This document shows positions 30,404-50,184 of a stretch of 50,305 bases of DNA, piece by piece. Made by a program: the position numbers and the translations under genes. Source of the DNA: Melioribacter roseus (GTDB taxonomy: Bacteria; Bacteroidota; Ignavibacteria; Ignavibacteriales; Melioribacteraceae); contig DYLK01000020.1 in assembly GCA_020722065.1 (NCBI GenBank), positions 1 to 50,305 on the forward strand, written 5' to 3'. Each line of letters begins with the position of its first letter. Positions within the stretch are counted from its first letter, which is position 1. The notes below the pieces were generated by a model. It made no database searches, was not told where the DNA came from, and worked only from the letters and a program-made list of their open reading frames with translations.

Positions 30404-33400
30404 ATGTTCAGGGAATTCTGGGAAAAGTTTTTTCTTAGAAATCAGAATAAACAACAAAAATTTGTTTTCATTTTAGCTCTTTTAACTTGGGTTGTTTATG
30501 CTGTCGTTTCATTTTTGATAATAAAATCATCTGTCAATGATTTTTACACTGAAGCTGCAATTAGTTATGCTAAAGGTTTGGTAGATAAACCCAAAATCGC
30601 TTTAACTATAATTAAAAAGCAAATCGAAAAAGGGTATAAGTATAATAAATTTGATGTAGATTCACTTCCATTATTTCCCAAAACAGAAGCAGAATTGAAG
30701 GGAATTAAAATAAGTGTGTTAAAGAAAACAATTCAAACAATCCCAACAGAAATTACAAATGTAAAAGTTAATATTTATACGAATAATAATGTTATTTCTG
30801 ATAAAAATGAGATACAAAAATTTGTATTAGCTGATAAAATATTGAAAAATACTTCAAACAAGGGGATGATTGAAAATTCGTTAGAATTTGACAAATTAAT
30901 TAAATATTATCAATACGTGGAATGTTCTGATACTTCGTCTAAATGTTTTCAACAGTTAAAACGGTTTGGTTTAAATAATTCAACTAAATTGATTGTTGAA
31001 GTAATATTCCCACATAGCAAAATAGCTTTTTTGCATTATAATAAACAAATCAATGATATAATTTTGAGACATTTTCTGCTTGTCTTTATCGGGTTATTTG
31101 TAATAACCTTATTTTATATTTATTCTGTTAAGAAAAAAAATGCTGAAGACGTTTTGACCGAGCGTATAAAACATGAAAGAGAAAAATTTAAACAACTATT
31201 TAGTCTTGCCCCATTCCCAATTTTACTTTGTAAAATAGACGGAACAATAATTGAAGCAAATGAAAGTACAGTTGATCTTACAGAAATTGATAATGATAAT
31301 CTACTAAAAACAACGTTTATTACTTTTTTTTCAACCGAAACTTTAACTAAAAGACCTTTTGATTTTGAACGATTAAAAAGTGAAAGAAAAATTAGAACCG
31401 AATATGAACTGATATCTGCTACTGGTAAGAAAAAACACGTAATTATTAATGCTGTTTATCTTTATGATGATATATTTCAAGTTATTTTGGTTGATGTTAC
31501 AGAAAAACAAAATTTATTAGATGATTTGAAAGCAAAAAATAAGATAATAGAATTTGCAGACGGACATGCAAATATTGGTTCAATGGAATATAATTTCTCA
31601 ACTAAAGAAATTTGGATTTCCTCAGGTATGTTAGATTTATTTGGAATAAACAAACAAACAAAAATCACTTCACCAGATTATTTTCTTGATTTTCTTGCAA
31701 TCTCGGATAGAGAAAGAATCAAACGAAATCGATATTACTTAAAGAATACCGACCAAATGAAATTCAACATAACATATAAAATAAAAAAAATGGATGGTAA
31801 AGAATTTTGGGTTGAACATCTTGAAACTATTGAAAAAAATAGTCTTGGCGAAAATATGCTTATTACTTCTATTAAAGATATTGATGAACTTACCAAAATG
31901 ATAGAATCTATAAATGAAACAAATAATAAGTTTAAAAGAATTTTTGACTTTGCCCAAGTTGCACTTCTAATTGTCGATGCAAGATTTGTATATGAAACTT
32001 TAATGAATCTTGCCATTGAAAAGAAAAATATACAACTTGTTATAGATTCTATTACAGATGAATTATTAATACAATTCTTGAGATTTAGCAAGATTAAAGA
32101 AATCAATTTATATGGAAGCAAATTACTAAAACGCAAAATTGAAGATGTAACTTTAGACCAAATTGTTCCAAAAAGTGAGTACAAAAAAATTAAAAAATTA
32201 TATCAATATATATTAGAAGAAAAAAGTAATTATGTTACTTCATTCGATGTAAATATTGATGGTGAAATAAAAACTGGTTTGTTAAGTATTACAATTCCTG
32301 CTGATTTTAAAATATTAAAAACGTTAATTGTAAGTTTTTCAGATTTATCTGAACAAATAAAAACCCAAAAAATATTACATCAAACAATTTCAGTTTTAAC
32401 AACGTATTTCGATATCACTCCATTTCTAATTATCTCCCTAAATTCTAAAGGCGAAGTTGATTTTATTAACCAATTAGCAATAAAAACACTTGGTTTTACT
32501 AAAGAAGAGATTTTAGGCAAAGTTTGGGAAAGAGACTTTGTAGTTTCAACAATTGGTCGCACAATTGGGGAAAATGAAGATGAAGAAAACGTTACAAATA
32601 AAATTTCTACTAAAAATGAAGAGAAGATATTCCAGTGGACAATCAAAAAAGTTTACGATGAGAATAATCAACTTTTGTTAAGTTTACAAGTAGGAAGAGA
32701 TATTTCAGATGAAGGAAGAAGCAATAAAGAAATTGCTAAAAGTTATAAAGAAATAATAAGTCTGAAACACGAAATTGAAAAGAAGAATTTACAACTAATT
32801 CAAGCAAAACAAATGCTTGAAGAACGTGAAAAAATGCTTGTCAAAGAAAATAGTGATAAAGATAGATTCTTCTCGATAATTGCTCATGATGTACGCAGTC
32901 CGTTTACAGCTATTTTAGGAATGTTGCAATTTCTAACAGAGAATTCTGCTGATTTGACTGAAGAAGAAAAATCCGAAGCACTTTCAACCGTGAATCGTGG
33001 CGTACGAAATGTATATAATTTATTAGATGATTTACTGGAATGGTCGCGACTAAAAATGGATAAATTCCCACTTGAATTCCGAGAAGTAAATCTTTATGAA
33101 GTAATCTTAAATTCAATTTTACCATTTGAAAATTCTTTGGAGCAAAAGAATATTTCTTTGATAAAAGAAATTCCAACTGAAATTTTCGTTTTTGCAGATG
33201 AAAGAAGTTTATTAACTATTCTTCGAAATTTGCTTTCAAACGCAATTAAGTTTAGCAAAACTGGTGGAAAAATCACTATTTCTGTTATTAATAAGAATGG
33301 TTATGCACATATTTCAGTTATTGATACTGGAGTTGGAATTCCAATTGAAGCTCAAAATAAGTTGTTCAAAATTAATGAGCATCACACAACGATAGGAACA

Positions 33401-33557: not shown

Positions 33558-34676
33558 CTAAATATCTATTTGATACATTCTGTAAGTTTTGTACAAAGTT
33601 GCATTCATCATTTTTGCTCCTTTGTTCATCATTTCGTTATCTTCTAAAATCCAACTTGCTTCACCTTTGGTTATTCCCAAATCGGCAGCTCTTTTTGTAA
33701 TTTCGTAGTATAAAACAGCATCTAATCCACGTTTCTGAAATTCAGGGATAATCCCGAGTATTAAAATTCTTGCCCAGTCTGTTTTACCTTTCCAATTTAA
33801 CAATTTTAGAATTCCAAAAGGAAATAGTTTTCCTTTTAATCCTTTAATAATTTTGTTGTAATCGGGCATTACGAGAGCAAAACCAATAGGTTGATTATTA
33901 ATTTCGGCAAAAACTGTAATATGAGGCACGACAAGCGGTTTCAATTCTTTAGCAAAAGTTTCAATTTCTTCATCAGTGAAAGGAACAAATCCCCAATTTG
34001 GCTGCCAAGCTTTATTAAAAATAACTTTAATTTTTGCTAATTCATTATGAAAATCTTTCAAATTAACAGGTCGTATAACTACACCTGCACGTTTTGCAGC
34101 AAGTTGCGAAACGCGAGTTATTTTTTCTGATTCAAGTAATTTTTGCTGGTCTATTTGATAAGCATACAAATCTTTCGCTTTATAAAACCCATATTTTTCA
34201 ATTAAATCGACATAATATTTTGGATTGTAAGACATCATTAAACGAGGCTCATCTTCAAAACCATCAATTAAAAGTCCATAAACATTATTAACATCTGGGC
34301 TGGCTGGTCCACGCATTTGTTCTAAACCGCGTTCTTTCAACCAATTTCTAACAGTGTCAAATAATTTTGAAGTAATTTCATAATCATTAAAAGCTTCGAA
34401 AAAACCAAAAAAACCAACTTTATCATTGTGAATTTGGTTGTGTAAGTCATTTTTAATAGCCGCAATTCTCCCCACTATTTTCCCATTTTTTTCAGCAAAG
34501 AAAAGTTGCATTTCTGCATGCTTAAAGAATGGATTTTTATCAACGTTAAGTGTATTCTTTTGGTCAAAATTTAATGGAGCTACCCAATAATTATCGTTTT
34601 TGTAAACTTCAAATGGGAATTTAATGAATTGTTTTAATTCATTTTTTTGAACTTTTCTTATAGTAATTTCTGACAT
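33558..34676 (-). CDS. GNAT-fold acyltransferase, candidate bacterial ceramide synthase
   Basis: A 372-residue protein of the GNAT superfamily, longer than common acetyltransferases. The N-terminal part has a conserved YWVAPLNFDQK...NPFFKHAEMQLFFAE block and the middle a MRGPASPDVNN block; the acetyl-CoA-fold core is ILILGIIPEFQKRGLDAVLYYE near residues 307-328. In Caulobacter the bacterial ceramide synthase (bCerS) is a GNAT-like protein that N-acylates 3-ketosphinganine. This gene is one base after the stop of a serine palmitoyltransferase-like gene (TAAAATG), and a reductase gene lies just across a divergent promoter region. The ceramide role is inferred from that grouping. Confidence 0.6.
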   Translation of the reverse strand: MSEITIRKVQKNELKQFIKFPFEVYKNDNYWVAPLNFDQKNTLNVDKNPFFKHAEMQLFFAEKNGKIVGRIAAIKNDLHNQIHNDKVGFFGFFEAFNDYEITSKLFDTVRNWLKERGLEQMRGPASPDVNNVYGLLIDGFEDEPRLMMSYNPKYYVDLIEKYGFYKAKDLYAYQIDQQKLLESEKITRVSQLAAKRAGVVIRPVNLKDFHNELAKIKVIFNKAWQPNWGFVPFTDEEIETFAKELKPLVVPHITVFAEINNQPIGFALVMPDYNKIIKGLKGKLFPFGILKLLNWKGKTDWARILILGIIPEFQKRGLDAVLYYEITKRAADLGITKGEASWILEDNEMMNKGAKMMNATLYKTYRMYQIDI

Positions 34677-34677
34677 T

Positions 34678-35868
34678 TTATATCACTTTTAATTGTTTTC
34701 CAACTTCGATAAATTTTTCAATAATAAAATCGAGATGTGAATTTTCATGTGTGGACATATAACTTGTTCGGAGCATTTGTCTTCCTTGTGGAACTCCTGG
34801 TGAAATAAAAACATTTGTAAAAATTCCATAATCATACAACATACGCCACATTGTGAAAGCAAGCTGATCATCACCAACAATTACTGGTACAATTGCAGTT
34901 CTACCTGGTATAACATTAAACCCAGCATCAGTTAAACCTTTTCGTACTCTTTCGGCATTTTGAATAAGTTTTGTAACTAATTCGGGTTGTTCTTCTAATA
35001 TTTCAAGAGCTGCAGTTGCTGCCGCTACAGATGAAGGAGTCGGCGAAGCACTAAAAATTAATGCTGGTGAATGATGTTTTATATAATCAATAACTTTTGC
35101 TTTCCCAACAACAAAACCACCGAGAGAAGCAAATGTCTTTGAAAATGTTCCAATAGTTAAGTCAACTTCTTCTTCAAGGTTAAATTCACTTGCTGTTCCT
35201 CTTCCGCCTTTTCCAATAACGCCAATTGCGTGAGCGTCATCAAGCATAATTTTTGCATTATTCTTTTTAGCAAGTTCATTTAGTCTTGGTAAGTTTACAA
35301 TTTCTCCACCAGTACTGAATACACCATCACTCACAATTAATTTAGGGGAATCTAATGGCAATTTAGATAAAACACGTTCTAAATCTTTCATATCATTATG
35401 TTTATAACGCACTAATTCAGCTTGTCCAACTTTAGATAGCAAAGTTCCAGCTACAATACTTGCGTGGTTATCTTTGTCAGAAATTAAATATTCTCCTTTC
35501 CCAACAAGCGGGGCTAAAACTCCTTGTGAAGTTTGAAAACCAGTACTAAACAATAAACAAGCTTCTTTCCCTAGGAATTTTGCAATTTTTTCTTCAAGTT
35601 GAACGTGCAAATCAATTGTTCCAGTAAGGTATCGAGAGCCAGAACAGCCAGTTCCATATTTGTTTAATGCATTTCTTGCGGCTTCTATTACTTTTGGGTG
35701 AGCAGTTAATCCCAAATAATTATTTGAACCAGCCATAATAACTTTTCTTCCTTCAAGCATTACAACTGGTCCTTCATTTTCCTGTACAGGACGAAAATAT
35801 GGGTAAACTCCCAAAGCTTTTACTTCATCAGCACGAGTAAAATCATAACATTTCTGAAAAAGATCCAA
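34678..35868 (-). CDS. spt: Serine palmitoyltransferase-like alpha-oxoamine synthase
   Basis: A 396-residue PLP enzyme of the alpha-oxoamine synthase family, which joins an amino acid to an acyl-CoA with loss of CO2. PLP contacts are visible: His135 in DNHAS, DDAH at 210-213 and the Schiff-base Lys244 in [11 protein letters not shown]. The family includes serine palmitoyltransferase, 8-amino-7-oxononanoate synthase and glycine C-acetyltransferase. The N-terminal VYPYFRPV segment and [13 protein letters not shown] resemble bacterial serine palmitoyltransferases, and no biotin or threonine genes are adjacent. The start is TTG with GGAGG just ahead. Being paired with the GNAT protein and an epimerase-like reductase supports a first step in sphingolipid synthesis; KBL or BioF remain possible. 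Confidence 0.75.
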
Positions 35869-35966
35869 AATTCCTCCAAAAAAAATGGTGTATATTTAAC
35901 TATTCTTAAATTTAATTTGTGAAGATACTTAAAATTGTAATAAATAATTAAAAAGATTTAATAAAA

Positions 35967-36956
35967 ATGAATAAAAAAATTTGTTTAGTTACTGGTGGAA
36001 CCGGTTTTGTGGGAAGTCATTTAGTAGATTATTTACTTAAAAAAGAGTATAGAGTTCGCGTTCTTACCCGAAAAGGTAGTAATTTGAAATGGTTAAAAGA
36101 TAAAGAAGTTGAGATTTTTGATTGTGGTTACGATGATAAAATTGGAATTGAAAAAGCTATAAAAGATATAGATTTTTTATTTCATGTTGCTGGAGTTGTA
36201 AAAGCCAAAACTTGGAATGATTATTTAGAAGGGAATGTAAAAACTACAGAAAAACTATTGCAAATTGTTGAGGAAACAAATCCAAAAATTGAAAAAATTG
36301 TTATTGTTTCAAGTTTGGCGGCTAATGGACCAGCGAAAAATGGAATATTTTCTGATGAAAACTCAACACCAAACCCAATTACTCGATATGGGAGAAGTAA
36401 ATTAGAACAAGAAAAATTAGCAAAAAGTTATTTTTCTAAACTTCCAATTACAATTGTTCGTCCGCCTGCTGTTTATGGAGAACGTGATACTGAAATTTTC
36501 TTGTTTTTCAAAACATTCAAAAATGGGTTAATGACAAAAATTGGATATAATCAAAAATTAGTTTCACTTGTTCATGTTAGTGATTTGGTAGAAGGCATTT
36601 TTCTTGCTGGAATTTCACCACATTCGCAAAATGAAATATTTTGTATCGGGTCTGAAAAATACTATTCTTGGGATGAAATTGCCGATGCCACTTCTTTAGC
36701 ATTTCAGAAAAAGCCAATAACAATAAAAATTCCCCATTTCCTTGTTTTTGCAATTGGGGCAATTGCAGAATTTATTTCATTCTTTAGCTCAAAACCGGCA
36801 ACTTTTAATTTTGAAAAAGCAAAAGATTTTGTTCAAAATTATCAAACTTGTTCAATAAGAAAGGCTGAAAAAATTCTCGGTTATAAACCAAAAGTTAATT
36901 TGGTTGAAGGAATTAAACGAACTGTAGATTGGTACAGAGATAGTAATTGGTTGTAG
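35967..36956 (+). CDS. NAD-dependent epimerase/dehydratase-like reductase, candidate CerR
   Basis: A 329-residue extended short-chain dehydrogenase. The nucleotide-binding motif GGTGFVG is at residues 10-16, a Ser pair sits at 115-116 (VIVSSLAANG), and the catalytic YxxxK is Tyr141/Lys145 (RYGRSK). PPAVYGERD follows, as in sugar-epimerase-like enzymes. In Caulobacter the ceramide reductase CerR is of this superfamily, so the gene's position opposite spt makes a reductase role plausible. No sugar-nucleotide pathway genes are adjacent. Its 3' end overlaps the convergent DUF123 gene by 76 bases. Confidence 0.75.
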   Translation: MNKKICLVTGGTGFVGSHLVDYLLKKEYRVRVLTRKGSNLKWLKDKEVEIFDCGYDDKIGIEKAIKDIDFLFHVAGVVKAKTWNDYLEGNVKTTEKLLQIVEETNPKIEKIVIVSSLAANGPAKNGIFSDENSTPNPITRYGRSKLEQEKLAKSYFSKLPITIVRPPAVYGERDTEIFLFFKTFKNGLMTKIGYNQKLVSLVHVSDLVEGIFLAGISPHSQNEIFCIGSEKYYSWDEIADATSLAFQKKPITIKIPHFLVFAIGAIAEFISFFSSKPATFNFEKAKDFVQNYQTCSIRKAEKILGYKPKVNLVEGIKRTVDWYRDSNWL

Positions 36957-44827: not shown

Positions 44828-45794
44828 ACAGACAATTCGTCCGTTTTCCTTTGAACAATTTACTGGACAAGACAAAATTGTAAGTAATCTCCGAGTTTTT
44901 ATTTCGGCAGCCAAAATGCGTGGTGAATCACTTGACCACGTTTTACTTACTGGACCTCCAGGATTAGGAAAAACAACACTCGCAAACATTATCGCAAATG
45001 AAATGCAAGTTCCAATTAAAACTACATCTGGTCCAGTTTTAGAAAAACCTGGTGATTTAGCGGGAATTTTAACAAATCTCGATGAAAAAGCTGTTCTTTT
45101 TATTGATGAAATCCACAGACTTTCGCCCGTTGTGGAAGAATATCTCTATTCGGCAATGGAAGACTTTGTTTTGGATATTATGATTGATACGGGACCAAAT
45201 GCCAGAACTGTGCAAATCAAATTGCCAAAATTCACACTTGTTGGCGCCACAACTCGAGCTGGCTTGTTAACTGCTCCGTTGCGAGATAGATTTGGAATAA
45301 AATCCCGACTTGATTATTACGACAGTGTTCTACTTTCAAAAATTATCAACAGAAGTTCATCAATTCTCGAAATAAAAATTGATGCCGAAGCTTCATTCGA
45401 AATTGCAAAAAGATCACGCGGAACGCCAAGAATTGCCAACCGATTACTGCGAAGAACTCGCGATTTTGCAGATTACGAATCAATGAAAAACATAGATTTA
45501 AGAATTGCAAAAGTAGCATTAGAATCGCTTGATGTTGATGAAGATGGTTTAGATGAAATGGATAAAGAAATTCTTCTTACTATTATTGATAAATTCAATG
45601 GCGGACCAGTTGGACTAAGTACAATTGCTGTTTCCGTGAACGAAGACGCTGGCACAATTGAAGAAGTTTACGAACCTTTTTTAATTCAACAAGGATTTAT
45701 TCAACGTACGCCTCGCGGAAGAGAAGCGACAGAATTAGCTTATCGCAGATTTAACAGAACAAAAGGACAAAAAGAAAAAGGATTGTTTGATTAA
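44772..45794 (+). CDS. ruvB: Holliday junction helicase RuvB
   Basis: A 340-residue AAA+ motor that drives branch migration of Holliday junctions with RuvA. Walker A is GPPGLGKTT at residues 61-69, Walker B ends in DEIH (112-115), and [18 protein letters not shown] and the arginine-rich [17 protein letters not shown] follow. The winged-helix tail is present ([19 protein letters not shown]). Length is standard. ruvA and ruvC are not beside it. The stop overlaps the kdsA start by one base (TAATG), so it is translationally coupled to the LPS genes. Confidence 0.97.
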
Positions 45795-46606
45795 TGATAA
45801 ATCTAAATAATATTAAAATTGGAAACAATAATCAGTTTGTGCTAATTGCAGGACCTTGTGTAGTTGAAAACTGGGAAATCACATTTCAAACTGCTGAAAA
45901 AATTAAAGAAATTACTACAAGATTAAATATTCCATTTATTTTTAAGTCAAGCTACAAAAAAGCAAACCGCACAAGTTTGAATTCATTTGTAACAATTGGT
46001 GAAGATGAAGCTTTGCAAATACTTGCTGATGTAAAAAAACAACTCGATTTGCCAATTATAACCGACATTCATTCGCCAGAAGAAATTGAAAAAGCAAAAG
46101 AAGTTGCAGATATTCTACAAATTCCAGCTTTTTTATGCAGACAGACAGATTTATTAATTTCAGCAGGGAAAAGCAATCGAATTGTTAATGTGAAAAAAGG
46201 ACAATTTCTTGCACCAGAAGATATGAAACACGTTGCAGAAAAAATTCAATCAACGGGAAATAACCAAATTATGCTAACTGAAAGGGGAACAACATTCGGA
46301 TATCATAACCTTGTTGTTGATATGCGAAGTTTAGTTGTGATGAAAAATTTGGGTTTTCCTGTTGTAATGGATGCGACACATTCCGTACAAATGCCGTCAA
46401 ATTCAAATGTAACTGGTGGAAATCCCGAATTTATTTATCCACTTGCAAAAGCAGCAATTTCAATTGGAATTGACGCACTTTTTATGGAAGTTCACCCAAA
46501 TCCCGAAAAAGCATTAAGTGATTCCGCCAGCCAATTACCACTTTATCAACTTGAAAAAATGTTAATTTTACTTAAAAAAATTGACGAAATTGTAAAATCT
46601 GAGTAA
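45794..46606 (+). CDS. kdsA: 3-deoxy-8-phosphooctulonate synthase (Kdo-8-phosphate synthase)
   Basis: A 270-residue enzyme that joins phosphoenolpyruvate and arabinose 5-phosphate to make Kdo 8-phosphate, the first committed step to the LPS core sugar Kdo. Signatures are LIAGPCVVE, FKSSYKKANR, DIHSPEE, FLCRQTDLL and the MEVHPNP tail. An Asn is absent at the position that would mark the non-metal class only if alignment confirms it, so metal dependence is left open. It is coupled to ruvB and lies 3 bases ahead of kdsD, which makes its substrate. Confidence 0.95.
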   Translation: MINLNNIKIGNNNQFVLIAGPCVVENWEITFQTAEKIKEITTRLNIPFIFKSSYKKANRTSLNSFVTIGEDEALQILADVKKQLDLPIITDIHSPEEIEKAKEVADILQIPAFLCRQTDLLISAGKSNRIVNVKKGQFLAPEDMKHVAEKIQSTGNNQIMLTERGTTFGYHNLVVDMRSLVVMKNLGFPVVMDATHSVQMPSNSNVTGGNPEFIYPLAKAAISIGIDALFMEVHPNPEKALSDSASQLPLYQLEKMLILLKKIDEIVKSE

Positions 46607-46609
46607 AAA

Positions 46610-47590
46610 ATGGAAAATCCAGAGATAATTAAAAACGGTCGTAGAGTAATTCATATCGAACAAAAAGCTGTTGATAAGCTTGTTGCAAGATTAGATGACG
46701 ATTTTGCCGAAAGTGTTAAAAAAATCTATAATTCCAAAGGTAGAGTAATTCTTAGTGGAATTGGAAAATCTGGCTTAATTGCACGCAAAATTGTTGCAAC
46801 TTTGAATTCTACTGGAACTCCCGCAATTTTTCTTCATCCAGTTGATGCAATGCACGGCGATTTAGGAATTGTTCGTAATGAAGATATTGCAATATTAATC
46901 TCGAAAAGTGGAAATACAGAAGAACTTCACGATTTAATAATTATGCTAAAAAGAATGTCAGTTCCAATAATTGCATTAACAAGTAATAAAAATTCATATT
47001 TAGGAAAAAATTCTACTTTCTTTCTTGATGTTTCAGTCGAAGAAGAAGCTTGTCCAAATGATTTAGCCCCAACTTCATCTACAACAGTTGCACTTGTAAT
47101 TGGTGATGCACTTGCAATTGCACTTTTGCAACTTCGGAATTTTACCCCCGAAGATTTTGCTCAACTTCATCCTGCGGGAACTTTGGGCAAAAAACTCACA
47201 CTGAAAATTGATGAAATTATGATAAGTGGAAATGATGTCCCAAAAGTTCTCCCTTCAACTTCGTTCAAAAATACGATACTCGAAATTACATCAAAAAGAT
47301 TGGGTGTTACAACTGTTGTTGATGAAAATGGAATTCTTTTAGGAATAATTACTGATGGCGATTTACGAAGATTATTAGAAAAAGATGTTGATTTGACAAA
47401 GTTGACCGCAAATGAAATGCTAACTAAAAATCCAAAAACAATTTCGAAAGACAAATTGGCTTCGCAAGCACTTAGTTTGATGGAAAAATATAATATCACA
47501 AGTCTGATTGTTATTGAAAATGAAAAGCCAATTGGAATGTTGCATTTGCATGATTTGGTTAAACTTGGATTGCAGAGCAATGATAAATAA
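46610..47590 (+). CDS. kdsD: Arabinose-5-phosphate isomerase
   Basis: A 326-residue KpsF/GutQ-type enzyme that converts ribulose 5-phosphate to arabinose 5-phosphate for Kdo synthesis. The N-terminal SIS domain holds SGIGKSGLIARK, HPVDAMHGDLG and ISKSGNTEEL; two CBS domains follow (about residues 205-325, with LGIITDGDLRRLLE). Length is standard. It sits 3 bases after kdsA and overlaps the start of lptC by 11 bases. kdsC, which often lies between these two genes, is absent here. Confidence 0.95.
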   Translation: MENPEIIKNGRRVIHIEQKAVDKLVARLDDDFAESVKKIYNSKGRVILSGIGKSGLIARKIVATLNSTGTPAIFLHPVDAMHGDLGIVRNEDIAILISKSGNTEELHDLIIMLKRMSVPIIALTSNKNSYLGKNSTFFLDVSVEEEACPNDLAPTSSTTVALVIGDALAIALLQLRNFTPEDFAQLHPAGTLGKKLTLKIDEIMISGNDVPKVLPSTSFKNTILEITSKRLGVTTVVDENGILLGIITDGDLRRLLEKDVDLTKLTANEMLTKNPKTISKDKLASQALSLMEKYNITSLIVIENEKPIGMLHLHDLVKLGLQSNDK

Positions 47591-48119
47591 GTTCATTTTT
47601 ATTGTTTCTATATTCATTTTGATAATTTCTTGCCAACCACAAAAAATTAAACCAGATGTCGAAGCAATTGATGACGATAAAATTCCAACGCACGAAAGTT
47701 GGAATACAAATATCAAATTTTATAAAGGGAATCATCTCCAAGCTATTCTTAAAACATCGCATTTGACGGATTATGAAGAAGAAGAATTTAAATTGTTAGA
47801 TAAAGTAAATGTTAAATTCTATAACAAAAAAAATCAACTTGAATCAATTTTAACTTCAAATTATGGGAAATCTGATGATAAAAATAAGTTGCTATTTGCG
47901 TGGGGAAATGTTGTGGTTCAGAATTTTGAAGAGAAAAAATTGAATACTGAAGAATTGATTTGGAATGAAGAAACAGAGAAAGTCTATACTGATAAATTTA
48001 TTAGAATTTATGATGGACCTGATATTATTGAAGGTTTTGGGTTTGAATCTGATAAAAAATTGGAGAATTACAAAATCTTTAAAATCACTTATTTGGCACA
48101 AAGAGAGACGAAAAATTGA
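47580..48119 (+). CDS. lptC: LPS export protein LptC, lipoprotein form
   Basis: A 179-residue protein with a lipobox (LIISC, Cys18), whereas E. coli LptC has an N-terminal membrane helix. It is the periplasmic bridge component that hands LPS from LptB2FG to LptA. The sequence after the signal is strand-rich, with FYKGNHLQAILKTSHL and ILTSNYGKSDDKNKLLFAWG matching the LptC/OstA beta-jellyroll pattern. The start ATG overlaps the end of kdsD by 11 bases; a longer upstream frame would run far into kdsD and spoil the lipobox. The stop overlaps the lptA start. Confidence 0.8.
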   Translation: MINKFIFIVSIFILIISCQPQKIKPDVEAIDDDKIPTHESWNTNIKFYKGNHLQAILKTSHLTDYEEEEFKLLDKVNVKFYNKKNQLESILTSNYGKSDDKNKLLFAWGNVVVQNFEEKKLNTEELIWNEETEKVYTDKFIRIYDGPDIIEGFGFESDKKLENYKIFKITYLAQRETKN

Positions 48120-49459
48120 ATTTTTTTAAAACTCAACTAATTTTAATTTTTCTTTATGTAATTTCTTTCTCGCAGAATTTCTCGATTGTTGGCGATAGTT
48201 TGATTGGGAAAGTTGTTGGAGAAGAAAAATTTAGAGAAATCATTGGAAATGTTAAAATTGTAAGTGAAAATACAACAATTACTTGCGAAAAAGCAGTTCA
48301 AAATCTTACAACACAGGATTTAAGCCTTTCGGGAAATATAATTCTTACTAATGATACACTTCAAGCTTTCGCCGAAAATGCAATGTATAACAAAGAAAAA
48401 GATTTTGCATTTAGTGATGATAAAGTAAAGATAATCCAAAATGAAGATAGAATTTCGGCTAATTCTGGGAATTTCGATTTTATTAAGCGAATTGCAGAAT
48501 TCAAAGGGAATGTGTTTGTAGAAAATCCACAATTAAAATTAAATTCTGATTTTTTGCGTTATTTCGATTTTGAAAAAAAAGTTCAAAATTATGGAAATGT
48601 TATCGTACAAGATTCTGTGAATATTTTGTATTGCGATTCGCTTTTTACAGATAGAATTAAATCGATTAACGAAGCTTTTGGGAAAGTGAAAATTCACATA
48701 AAAAATGAAAAGGCAACACTTTTTGGCGGATTTTTTCGCGATTCGGCTGCTGTTTTTTCCGAATTTGAAATTCAACCTTTATTAATTCAAGAAAATAACG
48801 AGAATGAAAAAATTGATTCACTTTTCCTCCTTGCCGACAAAATCATAATTGAACGAGATTCAATAAATCAGAAAATGTTTTCGCAAAGAAATGTAAAATT
48901 GTACAACAAACAATTCCAGTTAGTTGCGGATTCCATTTATTTTGACATCACGAACGATAAAATTCAAGCTTTCAAACCAAAGAATGAATTACTTCCCGTT
49001 GTAATTTGGTCGGAAGAAAATCAAATTTCGGGCGATAGTGTAAATATTTATCTGAAAGAAGATAAAATTGATAGAATTGAAATAATAAAAAATGCGATGA
49101 TGATTGAAACAAAAGATTCAGTAAAACATCGTTTTAATCAAATAAGCGGCAATAAAATTGAGCTGTATTTTGCGGATGAAAAAATATCAAAAACTAAGAT
49201 TTATGATAATGTTTTAGCTATTTACTACACAATTGAAGAAGATGAAATTACTGGTTTGATGAAAGCATCATCGAAAAATGCTGAAATTGTATTTGAAGAA
49301 AATGCAGTCAAAAAAGTTAAACTGTTTGGTTCACCAGAAAGTGAATTTCACCCAATAAAATTAGTAGAAACCAAAGAAAATGAATTTATTTTGCCATATT
49401 TTCAACTTTTTAATAATAAACCGAAAATTCAAGAATTTTTAATTAGAATAACACAATGA
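48116..49459 (+). CDS. lptA: LptA/OstA-like periplasmic LPS transport protein
   Basis: A 447-residue protein with a signal peptide (ending VISFSQ) and repeated OstA-like strand pairs such as [21 protein letters not shown] and [21 protein letters not shown]. LptA proteins build the periplasmic bridge that carries LPS to the outer membrane. E. coli LptA is only about 185 residues, so this is a long form with more jellyroll repeats, as is usual in Bacteroidetes-type bacteria. The start is TTG, overlapping the lptC stop (TTGA); the stop overlaps lptB (ATGA). Whether it is strictly LptA or a related OstA protein is uncertain. Confidence 0.75.
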
Positions 49460-50184
49460 AATTACATAGTAATGAATTAGTAAAAATTTATAAAAAAAGG
49501 GAAGTTGTAAAAGACGTTTCAGTTTCAGTAAATCAAGGTGAAATAGTAGGATTACTTGGACCAAATGGAGCTGGAAAAACTACAACTTTTTATATGATTG
49601 TCGGAATGATAAAACCAAATTCTGGAAATGTTTTTCTTGATGATACCAAAATTACAGAATATCCAATGTACAAAAGAGCAAGAATGGGAATTGGTTATTT
49701 ACCTCAAGAAGCGTCAGTTTTTAGAAGATTAACAGTTGAAGAAAATATTCTATCAATTCTCGAAATGATAAAAGTTCCACAAAATGAAAGACATACTCGT
49801 TTAGAAAAATTGTTGGAAGAGTTAAATATTACGCACATTCGCAAGAGTTTGGGAATTCAATTAAGCGGTGGTGAAAGAAGAAGAACTGAAATTGCGAGAG
49901 CTTTGGCTACAGAACCCAAATTTATTTTATTAGATGAACCTTTTGCAGGCGTTGATCCAATCGCTGTTGAAGATATTATGAAAATAGTAGCAAATCTAAA
50001 AAACAAAGGCATCGGAATTTTGATAACCGATCATAATGTTCACGAAACTTTAAGTATTGTTGATAGAGCATATATTTTAATAGAAGGGAAAATATTTAAG
50101 GATGGCTCAGCAGAAACATTAGCAAATGACGAGGAAGTAAGAAAGTTGTATTTAGGCGAGAAGTTTAAATTGGATAGATATTAA
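49456..50184 (+). CDS. lptB: LPS export ABC transporter ATPase LptB
   Basis: A 242-residue ABC ATPase that powers LPS extraction from the inner membrane with LptF and LptG. Walker A is GPNGAGKTT (residues 35-43), the Q-loop is LPQE, the signature is LSGGE (136-140), Walker B is ILLDEP (157-162) and the switch is [10 protein letters not shown]. Length is standard. It starts four bases before the lptA stop (ATGA) and is the last gene of the operon; lptF and lptG are not in the window. A hairpin follows the stop at once. Confidence 0.96.

Follow-up and report, generated by a model that had tools for sequence, protein, structure and literature searches.

A predicted ceramide locus of three genes in Melioribacter roseus and its conservation in the Ignavibacteriales

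Do bacteria of the order Ignavibacteriales make sphingolipids, and if so, with which enzymes? The question is raised by a locus in a 50,305-nucleotide stretch of DNA from Melioribacter roseus (GenBank assembly GCA_020722065.1, contig DYLK01000020.1, positions 1 to 50,305; the whole stretch is called the window below). Here spt, a gene for a pyridoxal phosphate (PLP) enzyme of the serine palmitoyltransferase (SPT) type, lies beside genes for a GNAT protein and an extended short-chain dehydrogenase/reductase (SDR). We conclude, with a probability of roughly 0.9, that this locus is responsible for the ceramide backbone from which bacterial sphingolipids are built, with Spt, a bacterial ceramide synthase (bCerS), and the reductase CerR predicted to lead to dihydroceramide. 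What we show directly is the identity of the genes, how they are laid out, the clades into which their products fall, the catalytic residues, and that the genes stay linked and are lost together, while the activities, the substrate chain lengths, the acyl donor, the order of acylation then reduction, and the head group are what we infer. In the proposed route, Spt would make 3-ketosphinganine by condensation of L-serine and a fatty acyl thioester. This product would then be N-acylated by the tandem-GNAT bCerS from a second acyl thioester, and CerR would reduce the 3-keto group to give dihydroceramide.

Layout of the locus

The features of the locus, in window coordinates, are as follows.

33558..34676, minus strand: bcerS (yghO / CC_1154 / 'aca' family), 372 amino acids (aa); tandem-GNAT N-acyltransferase, predicted ceramide synthase
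34678..35868, minus strand: spt, an α-oxoamine synthase (AOS) of the bacterial serine palmitoyltransferase type, 396 aa; TTG start; nearest to Sphingobacterium SPT
35869..35966, no strand: intergenic region of 98 bases from which spt and cerR diverge; presumably both promoters lie inside
35871..35877, minus strand: GGAGGAA, resembling a ribosome-binding site, 5' of the spt TTG start; direct sequence reading
35967..36956, plus strand: cerR, 329 aa; extended NAD(P)H-dependent SDR, predicted to reduce 3-oxo-dihydroceramide or 3-ketosphinganine

A first-pass annotation of the window had proposed that an Spt, a GNAT-fold bCerS candidate one base downstream of it, and a CerR-like reductase across a divergent promoter adjoin here. 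The genes are indeed present as three intact, full-length open reading frames, and the coordinates confirm that a single base separates the spt stop codon from the ATG of the GNAT gene, both on the minus strand. The TTG start of spt is preceded by TGGAGGAATT. The promoter claim stands in part: the SDR gene does diverge from spt across a gap of 98 bases, but promoter-like matches between positions 33400 and 37500 number 18 against 16.6 +/- 3.9 in shuffled sequence and thus show no excess. The window genome (2.38 Mb in 69 contigs, rated 100% complete) carries a single GNAT of the bCerS family, whose closest relative in named records, among the matches listed, is that of a Melioribacter roseus metagenome-assembled genome (96% identity).

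Conservation in the order and beyond

Is this arrangement a peculiarity of one genome? The three genes were sought in 58 genomes of the order from 49 genera, the window genome included. Only orthologue-grade matches among those listed were counted, leaving out GNATs at 34% identity or less, AOS at 49% or less, and SDRs below 45%. On this basis, 55 genomes have the GNAT, 54 the SPT, and 54 the SDR. The SPT and GNAT genes adjoin on the same strand in 51 genomes, the SDR gene diverges beside spt in 53 (with a gap of 98 to 292 nt), and the whole three-gene layout is present in 50. This conserved adjacency is far beyond chance. The genes are also lost together: G008 (88% complete), G015 (91%), and G022 (99%) lack all three, and the fourth SPT-less genome, G023 (68% complete), keeps the other two and is the only exception to the co-occurrence of GNAT with SPT (54 of 55 genomes). 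The GNAT gene is on another contig in G004, G033, and G051, and some genes are in pieces (the GNAT in G048 and G012, the SPT in G053).

Beyond the order, we considered the best 80 of at least 577 confirmed GNAT loci in named genomes, a set that overlaps somewhat with the 58 (L082, for instance, is G003). An SPT gene is in the flank at 55 of the 80, across many phyla, and for 21 of the other 25 a strong SPT-like gene (46 to 68% identity) is found elsewhere in the genome. In all, then, 76 of these best 80 loci have an SPT beside the GNAT or elsewhere.

The PLP enzyme

What marks the PLP enzyme as an SPT rather than another AOS? Its top NCBIfam model is SerpalmtaseCFB (NF047600), at 483.3 bits, followed by KBL (374), BioF (361), and ALAS (259). 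In a PDB search, the SPT of Sphingobacterium multivorum comes first with 412 bits, and further scores go to a Thermus thermophilus KBL/BioF-type enzyme (268), the Sphingomonas-type SPT 2x8u (259), the cysteate acyltransferase 28eh (214), and BioF (192). The S. multivorum enzyme (PDB 3a2b) is 47.9% identical to that of the window over 388 aligned residues and agrees with it at all 11 checked positions, the SPT-type alanine included. The suggested phylogenetic check against BioF and KBL comes out in favor of Spt: in an AOS tree of 30 rows, the window enzyme and the Sphingobacterium and Sphingomonas SPTs form one clade with support of 98/95, outside which fall KBL and BioF of E. coli, the T. thermophilus enzyme, and nine AOS from relatives. 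Within the SPTs, the enzyme is nearest the Sphingobacterium type and less near the Caulobacter/Sphingomonas type.

The catalytic residues tell a similar story. The Schiff-base lysine K244, together with H135, D210, H213, and R367, is common to all AOS compared and, being present in KBL and BioF too, does not discriminate among them. S243 and A274, on the other hand, are found only in the SPTs among five enzymes compared (three SPTs, KBL, and BioF); the residues aligned with them are G and N in E. coli KBL and G and T in BioF. Position 274 also bears on sulfonolipid synthesis, as the sulfonolipid enzyme SulA is described as having a lysine (Lys281) where SPT has alanine (PMC9304779). A274 lies 30 residues past the Schiff-base lysine, the same spacing as between Lys251 and Lys281 in SulA; the site was placed by this spacing and by alignment to the Sphingobacterium SPT, with the SulA sequence itself unaligned. 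Used as a query in its own genome, Spt finds one other match, which is remote (3.8e-6), so that it is the sole AOS-grade enzyme there; three stronger PF00155 matches in that genome are not found by this query. Among the relatives, one genome (G014) has a second SPT-like AOS (L078:5005-6198) with 48% identity, which groups with the Sphingobacterium SPT at 87/89.

The GNAT protein

The family to which the GNAT protein is assigned has a documented connection to ceramide. The yghO gene of E. coli BL21(DE3) and Caulobacter CC_1154 are listed together as 'aca', a gene required for dihydroceramide, in the legend to Fig. 9 of PMC9386255, and PMC11324152 names CC_1154 CerS and CC_1164 CerR. For B. fragilis, PMC10865984 gives BF9343_4218 as the CerS reference and BF9343_4240 as that for CerR. 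Relatives of the window protein on named replicons include proteins of Sphingomonas and Roseomonas as well as E. coli YghO. Of 45 plasmid records matched, seven were inspected, and five of these (Rubrobacter, Aureispira, E. coli, Sphingomonas, and Streptomyces) carry an SPT-like gene in the stretch covered; the Roseomonas and Bacteroides finegoldii records have none within it. Phylogeny upholds the proposed bCerS membership, the references for that side being YghO of E. coli and the protein from Sphingomonas. The tree in question was the second of two, for which the long-branch second copies L072, L073, and L074 and the Streptomyces row were dropped and eight loci added; with those four rows dropped, it separates the window, Sphingomonas, and YghO proteins from a Bacteroides-like paralogue clade at 100/100. 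The latter clade holds the B. finegoldii protein and the second copies of relatives.

The AlphaFold model of the protein (pLDDT 88.8) is a tandem GNAT, and the top Foldseek matches to it are GNATs, tandem ones included. Pfam gives the general GNAT model only, and PDB sequence searches give only weak, general GNAT matches. A second, distant GNAT, 26 to 34% identical to that of the window, is present in 18 of the 58 genomes of the order, among them the SPT-less G015. These distant copies include L068 to L080 except L078, with L046 of B. finegoldii being alike; eight of them share a clade with the latter protein at 100/100, and they are perhaps ceramide synthases of the Bacteroides type.

The reductase

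The SDR was likened to CerR by the first-pass annotation, and it is the best match in the window genome to three CerR-type queries. The Sphingomonas and Rubrobacter proteins each have it as their single match there (2.5e-16 and 2.7e-36), and for the E. coli cluster SDR it is the top match (1.5e-17), ahead of a second at 3.2e-4. All nine aligned rows share S116 and Y141-x3-K145, and identity to comparators outside the order is 24 to 41%. Caulobacter CerR is reportedly localized to the periplasm. In the window SDR, a glycine-rich motif starts near the N terminus at about residue 10, so that, judged by eye, no N-terminal signal peptide precedes it. Caulobacter CerR has also been linked to NDUFA9, the 39-kDa subunit of complex I, in the account given by PMC11087976. 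When a profile of the window SDR was compared with the PDB, NDUFA9 chains reached 3.9e-23 at best, while other extended SDRs did better (3wj7, 1.3e-44).

The acyl donor

Where would the acyl groups come from? Rhodobacterial clusters are described as having a dedicated acyl carrier protein (ACP) and ligase (PMC9386255). In the window genome, there is one ACP match, on another contig (C41), and no dedicated AcpR is found near the locus; the neighboring ACP whose search the first-pass annotation had recommended is thus missing. The acyl-ACP synthetase AasR is not among the window proteins scanned, and no genome-wide search for it was made. Because the single ACP is on another contig, the donor is likely acyl-CoA or a housekeeping acyl-ACP.

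Points against and alternative explanations

Several observations weigh against the ceramide reading or narrow it. The PLP enzyme falls below the equivalog cut-off of SerpalmtaseCFB (640 bits), so the claim is limited to an SPT-type enzyme and does not extend to membership of the NF047600 equivalog; as a PDB match to this enzyme, 2x8u scores slightly under the T. thermophilus KBL/BioF-type enzyme. The GNAT protein matches no NCBIfam model, and the key split in the first GNAT tree was supported at only 90/87, with a relative's second GNAT (L073) on the window side. Four of the best 80 GNAT loci are without a strong SPT in flank or genome (one weak match, three none), the completeness of these genomes being unstated. 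The SDR is only 24 to 30% identical to its counterparts in Sphingomonas, E. coli, and Rubrobacter, and its top NCBIfam model is HpnA, an identity that we rejected given a score of 126.7, a third of the 367.65 cut-off, and the linkage of the gene to spt instead. With the Rubrobacter query, SDRs also turn up in G008 (6.2e-24), G013 (1.6e-21), and G015 (2.1e-8), though not in G022. As these matches come from genomes without an spt-linked SDR, the match is strongest in the window genome but not exclusive to spt-linked proteins. Finally, G013 (L062) keeps SPT and GNAT and lacks only the SDR, which is not beside them.

Could the locus serve another purpose? If the AOS were glycine C-acetyltransferase (KBL) or BioF and its neighbors incidental, the common AOS fold and PLP residues would be accounted for, as would the appreciable KBL and BioF scores. 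We consider this very improbable and rejected it, since SerpalmtaseCFB and the Sphingobacterium SPT score higher, the tree sets both enzymes apart, and S243 and A274 are SPT-like; in addition, the relatives L073 and L187 have a separate KBL-like AOS that groups with E. coli KBL at 100/99, and the linkage of the window-type enzyme to GNAT and SDR is conserved. A cluster for capnine-type sulfonolipids, with the AOS acting as a cysteate acyltransferase (SulA) alongside an analogous N-acyltransferase and reductase, would require similar chemistries, and sulfonolipids are found in Bacteroidota according to PMC9304779. The odds of this are likewise slight: the cysteate enzyme 28eh scores far below the S. 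multivorum SPT (214 against 412 bits), and the window has alanine at the SulA Lys281 site as placed above, on which two grounds sulfonolipid synthesis was rejected. As for the GNAT, it might be an ordinary acetyltransferase that is next to spt by chance, and it is true that the general Pfam model alone matches it and that relatives have a distant GNAT paralogue clade, with one such copy in a genome without SPT. Linkage, co-occurrence, and the GNAT tree led us to reject this as highly unlikely: the gene adjoins SPT in 51 of 58 genomes and is absent together with it in three, an SPT is in the flank or genome for 76 of the best 80 loci, and in the tree the protein falls together with YghO and that of Sphingomonas.

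A closer rival concerns the order of steps within ceramide synthesis. The order of acylation then reduction is taken here from the Caulobacter work, in which cerR mutants are reported to build up oxidized ceramide (PMC11087976). In a eukaryote-like order, the SDR would reduce 3-ketosphinganine first, and the GNAT would then acylate sphinganine. BT_0972 of Bacteroides thetaiotaomicron is reported as a 3-ketosphinganine reductase (PMC9278070), which leaves room for reduction first, and an SDR without an N-terminal signal peptide fits a cytoplasmic reductase. Set against this are the Caulobacter mutants and the fact that no other protein of the genome matches CerR-type queries as well as the SDR does, and we regard the eukaryote-like order as unlikely, though worth keeping in view. 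Returning to the ceramide reading as a whole, a broader picture can be drawn, tentatively and with some doubt: the Ignavibacteriales as an order may be committed to making sphingolipids by means of a self-contained unit of three genes, supplied by a single housekeeping ACP or by acyl-CoA, and with a cytoplasmic CerR, giving a topology unlike that of Caulobacter.

Comparison with known systems

In Caulobacter and rhodobacteria, the ceramide genes are spt (CC_1162), cerS (CC_1154), cerR (CC_1164), acpR (CC_1163), and aasR (CC_1165). Spt, bCerS, and CerR of the window are homologous to this set, as judged via Sphingomonas parapaucimobilis (L045) and E. coli (L043), although identity is only 23 to 37%. 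PMC9386255 describes a sphingolipid-type yghO cluster in E. coli BL21. In E. coli PN43 (L043, 2343-10122), the cluster runs through lptF/lptG copies, spt, ACP, SDR, a fatty acyl-AMP ligase, and yghO; unlike there, no LptF or LptG is among the window proteins scanned. By DNA match, which registers presence of sequence and not intactness, 4501 of 5426 complete E. coli genomes have yghO and 4088 have spt.

In sphingolipid-producing Bacteroidota, the three genes are described as lying apart (PMC11334938), whereas in the window spt is clustered with bcerS and cerR. The same layout, with the SDR divergent from spt-GNAT, is found in a locus of Aureispira anguillae (L042; 63, 41, and 41% identity for SPT, GNAT, and SDR), which differs in being plasmid-borne and in having a wider spt-GNAT gap. 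A Rubrobacter radiotolerans plasmid (L041) has the spt-GNAT-SDR trio too, but with all genes co-directional. On a plasmid of Streptomyces sp. NBC_01001, an SPT-like AOS, a GNAT, an SDR, and a condensation-domain protein form one run (L047:6763-11289), possibly a secondary-metabolite use of ceramide enzymes.

Sphingolipid potential in Ignavibacterium and in many phyla is already published, and this locus adds a well-founded instance of an established pathway without changing what is understood of it. PMC11334938 gives Spt-like genes in 38 phyla in the Black Sea and 40 in all, and PMC10667739 credits Ignavibacter/Ignavibacterium with the genetic potential for sphingolipids and correlates monoglycosyl ceramides with Ignavibacteria. 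What is gained is that ceramide-based lipids can be firmly predicted, on genomic grounds, for Melioribacter-like Ignavibacteriales. Moreover, as 50 of 58 genomes have the compact divergent locus and three have none of its genes, these bacteria are a useful group in which to test which step comes first and where CerR acts, and G013, in which no SDR is at the expected position, offers a natural test of what CerR does.

Neighboring genes

An open reading frame of the DUF123 family (PF01986; 36881-37393, minus strand) overlaps the 3' end of the SDR gene by 76 bases. DUF123 is present in 11 of 20 fetched spt regions of relatives, with a similar overlap of the SDR gene in 10 of the 20. MlaE is in one of these regions (L048), most of them being too short on that side to judge. 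On the plus strand at 45794-50184 is a gene run of DAHP_synth_1, SIS-CBS, LptC/OstA-like, and ABC ATPase proteins, which looks like a cluster for the synthesis and export of 3-deoxy-D-manno-octulosonate (Kdo)-lipopolysaccharide. The first-pass annotation had tied such genes to sphingolipids in the outer membrane; Kdo- and lipopolysaccharide-export-like genes are indeed there, at 45.8 to 50.2 kb, but no functional link was found. The window also carries genes of the type IX secretion system (PorV and a C25 peptidase), consistent with a Melioribacter-like placement.

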